From a virus, in IMG/VR virus record IMGVR_UViG_3300045747_000087, positions 1 to 34,618 of that record: a stretch of DNA of 34,618 nucleotides; one strand, written 5' to 3'. The notes beneath the pieces are model-generated. The model saw only the letters and a list, made by a program, of their open reading frames with translations, did not search any database and was not told the DNA's origin. A program made the translations under genes and the position numbers. This document shows, one piece after another, positions 16,602 through 19,410 of this stretch; position 1 is the first letter of the stretch, and each line of letters opens with the position of its first letter.

Positions 16602-16609
16602 TATTTATA
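16602..16609 (-). promoter_or_regulatory. Consensus T4-type late promoter before gp48
   Basis: TATAAATA on the minus strand, an exact match to the T4 late promoter box, ends 44 bases before the gp48 ATG. It overlaps the first base of the plus-strand gp4 start codon. The intergenic stretch 16,559-16,608 also has a direct repeat GGTTAA GGTTAA (about 16,576-16,587). No clear plus-strand late box was seen. Confidence 0.75.
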
Positions 16610-17058
16610 TGGCACGTAATTACCTGCAAGGCAAATTTGAACCAAAGTATCCTGAGAAGTATGTAGGCGATGTGAAGAACATCGTCTTCCGTTCGTCATG
16701 GGAAAGAAAAGCCATGATATGGTTCGACAACAATCCTGCTGTCCTGAAATGGGCCAGCGAAGAACAGTGGATTCCATACATCAGCCCGGTTGACCATATC
16801 CCGCATAAATACTACATAGACTTCATCATCAGCGTTAGAACAAAGACAGGTGAGAACAAAGTATTCGCCATTGAGATAAAGCCTCAGTCACAAGTGGATG
16901 CTCCAAAGACACCAAAGCGTCAAACCAAAGCATATATAGAGAGTATCAAGACATATGCAGTCAACCAAGCAAAATGGAAAGCAGCAGTTGAATGGTGTGG
17001 TAAACAAAACATGGAATTCAAAATCCTCACTGAGAACGAATTGGGAATAAAGAGATAA
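16609..17058 (+). CDS. 4: Head completion protein gp4 (nuclease fold)
   Basis: At 149 residues it matches T4 gp4 in length (150). FRSSWERKAMIWFDNNPAVLK, then WIPYISPVDHIPHKYYIDF and VFAIEIKPQSQV give the E ... D ... ExK core of a restriction-like nuclease. In T4 gp4 finishes the head before tail joining, probably by trimming DNA. It opens the rightward late block; the stop overlaps the next ATG (TAATG). The ribosome binding site is weak. Confidence 0.88.
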   Translation: MARNYLQGKFEPKYPEKYVGDVKNIVFRSSWERKAMIWFDNNPAVLKWASEEQWIPYISPVDHIPHKYYIDFIISVRTKTGENKVFAIEIKPQSQVDAPKTPKRQTKAYIESIKTYAVNQAKWKAAVEWCGKQNMEFKILTENELGIKR

Positions 17059-17621
17059 TGGCAACCATTTTTGAAGAGATTAAACAAAACAACAAGAACT
17101 ACACACCACAGCGCAGTCAACAATGGTTCAAGACCAACGTTACGAATGCGTTTTCTGGTATGGGTACACAGCGTTTCCTCGGACAGAATCTGACACTACA
17201 AACCAAGACAATCTATCCCGGTGGCATGTTCTTCTTTGGTTACAATCCAAAGTTCAAAAGTGAATTGCCGTTCTACGATAACTTCCCACTCGTATTGCCG
17301 TTCTCAGAAGATGCAAAGCACTTCACAGGATTGAACCTGCACTACATGGCTCCACAATACCGCATGATGATTCTAGACAAGCTGCTAGGTATCTCAACCA
17401 ACAAGATGATTCCAGACAACCTCAAAAAGAATTTGTCGTGGCAATACTTGAAACGCATCGCAGGACAACGTGTAGCAGAACACGCGGTCAAACAATACCT
17501 CAAAGGATATGTAATGACTTCCTTTGTTTCAGTACCAACAAAAGATTGGCCTATCGCCATTCACTTGCCATTGGCTAAGTTTGTCGGTGCGTCTGAACAA
17601 TCCGTATGGAGAAAGATGTAA
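17058..17621 (+). CDS. T4-like virion assembly protein, unassigned
   Basis: This 187-residue basic protein starts TIFEEIKQNNKNYTPQRSQQ and has SELPFYDNFPLVLPFSED, GLNLHYMAPQYRMMILDKL and, near the end, KDWPIAIHLPLAKF. The NLHYMAP block and its place between gp4 and gp54 mark it as a conserved T4-superfamily virion or assembly protein. I cannot decide with confidence between a tail completion protein of the gp3 type and another structural component. The ATG overlaps the gp4 stop and its stop overlaps the gp54 ATG. Confidence 0.65.
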   Translation: MATIFEEIKQNNKNYTPQRSQQWFKTNVTNAFSGMGTQRFLGQNLTLQTKTIYPGGMFFFGYNPKFKSELPFYDNFPLVLPFSEDAKHFTGLNLHYMAPQYRMMILDKLLGISTNKMIPDNLKKNLSWQYLKRIAGQRVAEHAVKQYLKGYVMTSFVSVPTKDWPIAIHLPLAKFVGASEQSVWRKM

Positions 17622-18517
17622 TGTCAACACAGAGCGACCTACTACGCAATCTAAAGGGTGGTGCACAGAATCAAGTCACCAACTTTGCCGCTGACCTGAT
17701 AACAGGACAGAAACGTGGAAACAAGAATGCGACCAAGAGTAACACTGGTGGCCTGCAAAACTTCATAAGCGAAATCAGCAGTCGCAATGGTTTCTACCGT
17801 CCAACATTCTTTGAGGTACAAATAACAACACTCGGTGATTGGGATGAGTCTCGTTCATTCAGCTTGTTATGTCATCAGGCTGCAATACCAGGTGTCAGAG
17901 TGGACACAACATCTGGTTTGATTTACGGTATCCCATATGAAGTGCCAACAGGTGTGACATTCGACCCATGTTGGTGTTCGTTCTATATCGACAATGCATT
18001 CAATCTACCAACAGTAATTTTGAAGGAGTTAAACAAGCGAATTGAGATTGCAGACGACAAAGGACAAAGTGGAAATGTTTCATGGTCTCCAAGATATCGT
18101 GATGACCCACAACATCCATTGTTCAATATTGATATCACAACGTTCTCCACTGACTACATGACAACCAACATGGACAACTACAACGGTTCTGTTGCAGATG
18201 GTCTTCCTGTCATATCTAAATACTCTTTGAAGAATGCGTTCATCAAAACAGTTCAGCAAACAGCACTTGATTGGTCGGCAAAAGATAACATCGCTTCGAT
18301 GGCAATTGAATTCTCGTATGAGTATTTCGAGAACACAACAGCAAAGCCAACACCACCGAAGACTGTGACACCAGCAAAGAGTCCTTTGAATTTTGCTTCT
18401 GTGCTTGCTGCAAACCCAATTCTTGGAACTGCATTCGATGCTGCGAAACGTACACTGCAACAAAACGCAATTATGAACAACCCACTTGTGAATCAAGGTT
18501 CGCAATTCTTACCTTAA
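17621..18517 (+). CDS. 54: Tail tube initiator gp54
   Basis: This 298-residue protein has FISEISSRNGFYRPTFFEV and SFSLLCHQAAIPGVRVDT, the tail-tube-like domain seen in gp54 and the tube protein, and FSYEYFENT late in the chain. T4 gp54 (320 residues) starts tube growth on the gp48 cap. The start at 17,621 overlaps the previous stop (TAATG); GGAGAAAGA lies just upstream. A low-complexity end (LNFASVLAANPILGTAFD) may reach into the baseplate. Confidence 0.8.
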   Translation: MSTQSDLLRNLKGGAQNQVTNFAADLITGQKRGNKNATKSNTGGLQNFISEISSRNGFYRPTFFEVQITTLGDWDESRSFSLLCHQAAIPGVRVDTTSGLIYGIPYEVPTGVTFDPCWCSFYIDNAFNLPTVILKELNKRIEIADDKGQSGNVSWSPRYRDDPQHPLFNIDITTFSTDYMTTNMDNYNGSVADGLPVISKYSLKNAFIKTVQQTALDWSAKDNIASMAIEFSYEYFENTTAKPTPPKTVTPAKSPLNFASVLAANPILGTAFDAAKRTLQQNAIMNNPLVNQGSQFLP

Positions 18518-18529
18518 TATGGAGTCATT

Positions 18530-19225
18530 ATGGCATTACCAAAACTGAACATCCCAACATATGAATTGAAGCTTCCTTCTACCGGAAAGACAATCAAGTA
18601 CCGCCCATTCGTAGTGAAAGAACGTTCGATTCTTTTGCTTGCAATACAAAGTGAGAACACCGACAGCATTTTGAATGCCCTTGATGAATTGTTCGGCACA
18701 TGCACATTCGGTGTATGTAAGTTGAAAGACATGCCAATCGTTGACTCCGAATTTTTGTTCATCAACATTCGCAACAAGTCCATTGGTGAAGACCTCGACT
18801 TGGTTCATACATGCGAATGTGGAACAAAGAACGACACACAGGTTAGCTTGGATGCATTGACCATCGAAGGTGTTGCAGGTAAGAATGATATCGACCTCGG
18901 CAACAACATCTTCTTGAAGATGAAGTACCCAACGTTGAACCACTCGTCTATCCTCACAGAGTCACCAACCGAAGACGGAGTGCTTGAAGTGATTGCATCG
19001 TGCATCGACACAATCATCGAAGGTGACATGGTTTACAAGGCAGCAGATAACACACTCGCCGAGTTGAAAGACTTCGTGCTTGGCTTGACTCAATTGCAAT
19101 TGGATATGGTGCAAGAATTCTTCGCCAACATTCCAAAGATTGTTGTCAACGGAAAATACACTTGCAAGAAGTGCAACAAAGAGAACACATTCAAGATTGA
19201 AGGCTTGGAGAATTTTTTCGCTTAG
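18530..19225 (+). CDS. 26: Baseplate hub assembly protein gp26
   Basis: This 231-residue protein begins LPKLNIPTYELKLPSTGKTIKYRPF, the T4 gp26 family start, followed by VKERSILLLAIQ. It carries two cysteine pairs, C95/C97 (TCECG) and C212/C215 (TCKKCN), that may bind zinc. GGAG lies before the ATG. Its last codons AAT TTT TTC GCT TAG contain the slippery heptamer T TTT TTC and a hairpin follows, so part of the product is probably extended by 63 residues in the -1 frame. In T4, gp26 acts with gp51 in hub assembly. Confidence 0.85.
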   Translation: MALPKLNIPTYELKLPSTGKTIKYRPFVVKERSILLLAIQSENTDSILNALDELFGTCTFGVCKLKDMPIVDSEFLFINIRNKSIGEDLDLVHTCECGTKNDTQVSLDALTIEGVAGKNDIDLGNNIFLKMKYPTLNHSSILTESPTEDGVLEVIASCIDTIIEGDMVYKAADNTLAELKDFVLGLTQLQLDMVQEFFANIPKIVVNGKYTCKKCNKENTFKIEGLENFFA

Positions 19226-19244
19226 GGATTTCAGGGGAATCCCT
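19213..19244 (+). promoter_or_regulatory. Predicted -1 ribosomal frameshift site
   Basis: Slippery heptamer T TTT TTC (19,213-19,219) is in phase with the gp26 frame and followed by stop TAG (19,223-19,225). A 7-bp perfect hairpin follows: AGGGATT (19,224-19,230), loop TCAGGGG, AATCCCT (19,238-19,244). The spacer is four bases. The -1 frame is open from here to 19,410. Confidence 0.75.
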
Positions 19245-19410
19245 TTTTGAATACTACAAACTGAATCACACCCTGATGTACACAATCAAAGATTCCAAGT
19301 TTACATTGAGTGATTTAGAAAACATGCTGCCTTATGAAAGAGAAATCTATGTGAACTTGATGCTTGCAGAATTGAAAGACGACATAGAGAGAAAGAAAGT
19401 AAATGGCTAA
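19219..19410 (+). CDS. 51: gp51-like extension of gp26 in the -1 frame
   Basis: This 63-codon frame has no ribosome binding site of its own; it continues gp26 after a -1 shift at the slippery site. It encodes FEYYKLNHTLMYTIKD and then LSDLENMLPYEREIYVN, a helix pattern seen in small gp51-like proteins and in the second part of tail assembly chaperones. A standalone start at ATG 19,276 is possible but lacks a Shine-Dalgarno sequence. The stop overlaps the tape-measure ATG. The predicted fusion has 293 residues. Confidence 0.7.
   Translation, partial: RLGISGESLFEYYKLNHTLMYTIKDSKFTLSDLENMLPYEREIYVNLMLAELKDDIERKKVNG

Follow-up and report, generated by a model that had tools for sequence, protein, structure and literature searches.

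What is encoded by the reading frame that runs on past the stop codon of a gp26-like phage gene, and how do ribosomes reach it? The question is raised by a viral DNA of 34,618 nt (IMG/VR record IMGVR_UViG_3300045747_000087), analysed over its whole length and referred to here as the window. Its gp26-like gene ends in GAG AAT TTT TTC GCT TAG, and an earlier note on this DNA had predicted that a programmed -1 frameshift joins gp26 to a gp51-like frame at that point. We put at about 90% the probability that the locus does encode a TAC-N/TAC-NC pair produced by programmed -1 frameshifting, with the tape measure protein of the downstream gene as its target; that ribosomes slip, how often they do so and what the products bind are what we infer. 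The features on which the argument turns are these:

17606-18517, + strand: tail-tube-like gene directly 5' of gp26 (phrog_45, E 1.6e-25)
18530-19225, + strand: gp26-like gene, proposed short chaperone form (TAC-N), 231 aa, C-terminus ENFFA followed by the stop
19213-19219, + strand: slippery heptamer U UUU UUC, in phase with gp26
19219-19410, + strand: gp51-like -1 frame extension, proposed C-terminal segment of the long form (TAC-NC), 63 codons plus stop
19223-19225, + strand: gp26 stop codon TAG, separated from the heptamer by a single codon (GCT)
19224-19244, + strand: RNA hairpin, possible lineage-specific stimulator, 9 bp (19224-19232 paired with 19236-19244) with a 3-nt loop
19403-21478, + strand: downstream ORF, probable tape measure protein, 691 aa

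The affiliations of the gene and of its extension are clear. The gp26 protein matches PF12322 (E 5e-57) and phrog_150 (E 7e-61), while translation of the -1 frame from 19219 gives RLGISGESLFEYYKLNHTLMYTIKDSKFTLSDLENMLPYEREIYVNLMLAELKDDIERKKVNG (RLGISGESLF...KKVNG), a peptide that matches phrog_634, the baseplate hub assembly catalyst family (E 7e-16), and also the C-terminus of phrog_150. Joining the two raises the score against phrog_150 from 207 bits for gp26 alone to 245 bits. Gene and extension together thus carry the PF12322/phrog_150 domain followed by a phrog_634 extension.

The in-phase heptamer and the adjoining stop that had been predicted are both present, and the heptamer at the end of gp26 is not a chance occurrence. 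Only two in-frame TTTTTTN heptamers are found among the 7,410 codons of the 31 coding sequences in the window, one of them being the gp26 site, and of the 13 Phe-Phe pairs in the same genes it is the only one coded in this way. Codon usage in the window runs the other way, with TTT used for 27% of Phe residues (TTC for 73%) and AAT for 33% of Asn residues.

The site is also a fixture of related loci. Matches to 1,052 phage records were recovered by tblastn, many of them in two pieces, since a change of frame requires the match to split. Junctions were then read in phage records and IMG/VR loci, in a set of 34 loci and a second set of 74 further distinct loci. U UUU UUN stands at the junction in every one of the first 34. 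In the second set it lies no more than 18 nt from the gp26 stop in 69 of the 74, with a gap of exactly 3 nt in 60 of these 69; the other five also have the heptamer: in four of these the 0-frame stop comes later, and in the fifth the gp26 match was wrongly placed. All told, the conserved T TTT TTC that the earlier note had suggested looking for at the gp26 ends of relatives appears, as U UUU UUN, in every one of the roughly 108 distinct relatives arranged in this way (a rounded total, since the sets overlap slightly; L062, for instance, is the contig of L001). Carriers of the in-phase heptamer and a gp51-like -1 extension include Kyanoviridae, a Methylophilales phage and IMG/VR contigs, along with Vibrio phage D486, Rhizobium phage RHph_N34 (Pootjesviridae) and Aeromonas phage AsFcp_2 (Angelvirus).

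What is conserved here is the nucleotide sequence and not the protein alone. The residue before the first Phe codon may be S, N, D, A, G or H, yet the third base of its codon is invariably T; the last base of the heptamer may be C, T, A or G, and the second Phe has become Leu in several lineages. Multiplying codon-usage probabilities for this conservation gives about 10^-12, a figure that serves as an illustration and not as a p-value because the loci are related.

Comparison with the Tevenvirinae indicates what the joined product is. These phages (VR26), like Acinetobacter phage AB1I1P, carry two genes, of which gp26 corresponds to the short form. The 250-aa gp51 of VR26 matches the whole PF12322 profile and matches phrog_150 to its last position, and it shares 24% identity with VR26 gp26 over 181 residues (E 2.6e-8). 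A profile of the joined products aligns with this contiguous gp51 straight across the junction (model positions 24-284 of 295, E 2.8e-17), with ...DFFRLALSHESLEEYY... in the profile set against ...DVFKLILNPDEVFVFY... in VR26 gp51. By these alignments T4-type gp51 is a contiguous gp26 paralogue plus the extension, and it follows that the long form is separately encoded in T4-type phages and would be made by frameshifting here. When the gp26 protein was searched against the 34.6-kb record, no second copy of the gene came up, the record being a fragment and a diverged copy being one that such a search could miss.

One alternative is that the -1 frame is a small gene of its own, a free gp51 whose translation follows that of gp26 through reinitiation or stop-start coupling. 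The frame is annotated separately in several records, and TAATG or TGATG overlaps the gp26 stop in some relatives, where coupled initiation would be possible. In the window, however, no ATG, GTG or TTG lies 5' of the conserved core of the -1 frame, and therefore no start-associated Shine-Dalgarno sequence can lie there either, in agreement with the earlier note, which gave the frame no ribosome binding site. The same holds for 9 of the 33 other loci, so that 10 of the 34 have no such codon before the core, and none of the remaining 24 has a Shine-Dalgarno sequence at its candidate starts. T4-type gp51 includes the gp26 domain. The earlier note had also counted an independent gene in relatives, with its own start, as an argument against frameshifting; a separate gp51 is indeed annotated in some of them, but its start is not conserved, whereas the slip site is universal. 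For this reason a free gp51 with its own start was rejected as a general mechanism, and we regard it as very unlikely for the window.

A run of T residues could also be a place for RNA polymerase, and not the ribosome, to slip. In some relatives the T run does reach seven or more, but in the window and in most relatives it stops at six and is followed by C, A or G, and the unit that is conserved is an in-phase heptamer beside a stop codon, which is the layout of a ribosomal site. Polymerase slippage therefore seems scarcely probable as the source of the long form, and programmed frameshifting by the ribosome remains the reading that we prefer.

The -1 frame also evolves as a coding sequence does. 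Between the window and L002, differences in the extension number 7, 2 and 21 at codon positions 1, 2 and 3, and 23 of the codon changes are synonymous against 2 that are not; against L026 the corresponding counts are 14, 4 and 30. The position bias is weaker against L001 (6, 3 and 10). Judged from these substitutions, the -1 frame is under purifying selection. An assembly error or a decayed, functionless frame can be dismissed given this third-position bias and the recurrence of the same frame relation in more than 100 distinct contigs and isolate genomes.

The earlier note had further described a perfect 7-bp hairpin after the heptamer. The hairpin is real, though its stem is 9 bp long and not 7. 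It folds at -10.5 kcal/mol with a z-score of -1.96 when 41 nt are considered; when 81 nt are folded it is not the best structure (z -0.32). The 9-bp stem is common to the window, L001 and L026. L002, whose gp26 is 96% identical, lacks the stem, with the residues encoded there unchanged; in other lineages the stem differs or is absent, and no structure is common to the relatives. Because L002 has lost the stem and the mean fold z-score across the 34 loci is only -0.56, the hairpin was rejected as a conserved stimulator. It may tune frameshifting within the lineage of the window.

Some lineages differ from this arrangement or from their own relatives. In Ackermannviridae (junctions at L021:2290-2490, L057:1570-1770, L058:1575-1760 and L060:1580-1770) the gp26 genes have a conserved -1 extension (DLLSYFVMCDELK...SMPWHLD) with no canonical slippery heptamer; the junction reads GAR AUU UUC AUY UAA without variation, and an ATG lies at the stop in only two of the four. 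In Vibrio phage D509 (L024:2150-2345), which has the extension, stop and start overlap as TAATGG and the slip region reads only UUUUC; the sequence suggests that translational coupling may operate there in place of frameshifting. Aeromonas phage AsFcp_2 (Straboviridae, Angelvirus; L059:1500-1690) has UUUUUUC and an unannotated extension of 58 codons, unlike its Tevenvirinae relatives. One could imagine, tentatively, that frameshifting is ancestral in the T4 superfamily, that the 26/51 pair of T4 is a derived duplication, that a 9-bp hairpin across the stop arose in the lineage of the window and tunes the ratio of products, and that Ackermannviridae shift frame without a canonical heptamer; we hold this scenario to be doubtful as a whole.

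Annotation of the extension is uneven. It is unannotated in the deposited records of ACG-2014d, S-WAM2 and AsFcp_2 (the L014, L015 and L059 junctions), and in other records it is called as a separate gp51 gene from an ATG that is not conserved. Where gp51 has been annotated separately or missed, as in S-WAM2, ACG-2014d and AsFcp_2, it is probably the C-terminal part of a fusion.

The -1 frame was said to end inside the start of the tape-measure gene. It is open for 63 codons, as predicted, and its stop (19408-19410) does fall within the next ORF, which begins with the ATG at 19403 (an overlap of 8 nt); that this ORF encodes the tape measure protein is probable, going by its position and composition, together with a hydrophobic stretch in mid-protein. 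The 691-aa product had no family match, and a comparison with T4-type gp29 gave only E 0.15. Further upstream, at 16609-17058 on the + strand of the window, lies a gene for a head-completion protein (gp4-like, phrog_218) that also matches the N-terminal domain of TnsA-like endonucleases (PF08722, E 7.6e-20).

Structure prediction is in keeping with a chaperone. An AF2 model of gp26 built from 24 sequences has a pLDDT of 84. Foldseek returned no match to it in the PDB below E 0.001, HK97 gp14 being present at a probability of 0.41, and a gp26 profile found nothing significant among the sequences of solved structures. When residues 1-94 were compared by VIA-align, the best match was 2ob9 (HK97 gp14, a tail assembly chaperone) with Z 7.4 over 82 residues, spanning 1-85 of the model. 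Next came 3klu (YqbN, which we take to be a member of a chaperone family) at Z 6.8 and 3fgx (RBSTP2171) at Z 6.2, with the following entry at 4.4. The model thus gives the short form a predicted chaperone-like fold, which we count as supportive only because Z is under 8. The extension is modelled as three helices (pLDDT 83); Foldseek found no PDB match to it below E 0.001 and no informative solved structure. Among predicted viral structures the best matches are T4-like hub assembly proteins.

Conserved heptamers in some 108 relatives, the gp51 homology of the joined product and the fold of gp26 all support the short and long tape-measure chaperones that had been proposed. The gp26-like gene would be the tail assembly chaperone of a T4-superfamily phage. 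Most ribosomes would terminate at the TAG and release TAC-N, while a minority would slip back one nucleotide on U UUU UUC, bypass the TAG and append a 63-residue three-helix domain, yielding TAC-NC, the presumed counterpart of T4 gp51. Both forms would coat the product of the next gene, the probable tape measure protein, and the long form might recruit tail-tube or hub subunits, by analogy with what has been proposed for lambda gpG/gpGT.

The idea of a frameshifted T4-like chaperone has already been published and is not new. The abstract of the 2022 study by Vladimirov and colleagues reportedly describes frameshifting across several T4-like groups, with genes 26 and 51 of T4 being separate. 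Passages on T4-like chaperones in two later papers cite that study (Vladimirov, Gautam and Davidson, Virology 2022, 566:9-15): the PRFect paper draws from it that some T4-like phages have a short gene and a longer fused gene with no frameshift (PMC10885494), and the Adele paper that T4-like TAC-N genes have polyT slip sites (PMC12846349). The present analysis contributes the locus in the window, a tally across about 108 distinct sequences, a comparison of the AF2 model with HK97 gp14 and an examination of the hairpin. The window and its relatives indicate that many members of the wider T4 superfamily carry the frameshift site, T4 itself having long been listed as the exception; the gain is better annotation and no new principle.

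How, then, does the locus compare with known systems? As those passages describe the chaperones of Vladimirov et al., the resemblance is close: a gp26-type TAC-N, a gp51-type TAC-NC and a polyT slip near the end of TAC-N. In T4, gp26 and gp51 are hub assembly chaperones, gp51 being absent from the particle (PMC3004832). The T4 and Tevenvirinae proteins are homologous to those of the window, with PF12322 in both, but T4-type phages have two separate genes where the phage of the window has one gene with a slip site. A 2016 review describes the frameshift as conserved in long-tailed phages except T4; in lambda the gpG/gpGT gene lies just before that for the tape measure, and neither form is expected in the virion (PMC5009743). 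The window resembles lambda in its predicted short form and -1 frameshifted long form, but its slip sequence is U UUU UUC, its gp26 showed no sequence similarity to chaperones of solved structure, and this gp26 is larger than the lambda chaperone, its chaperone-like N-terminal domain being followed by others. Finally, Vandenendeviridae and Andersonviridae (phage Adele) have a conserved -1 frameshift at a polyT motif in the TAC gene (PMC12846349), an arrangement like that of the window, though the motif there is GTTTTT and the phages belong to a different group.
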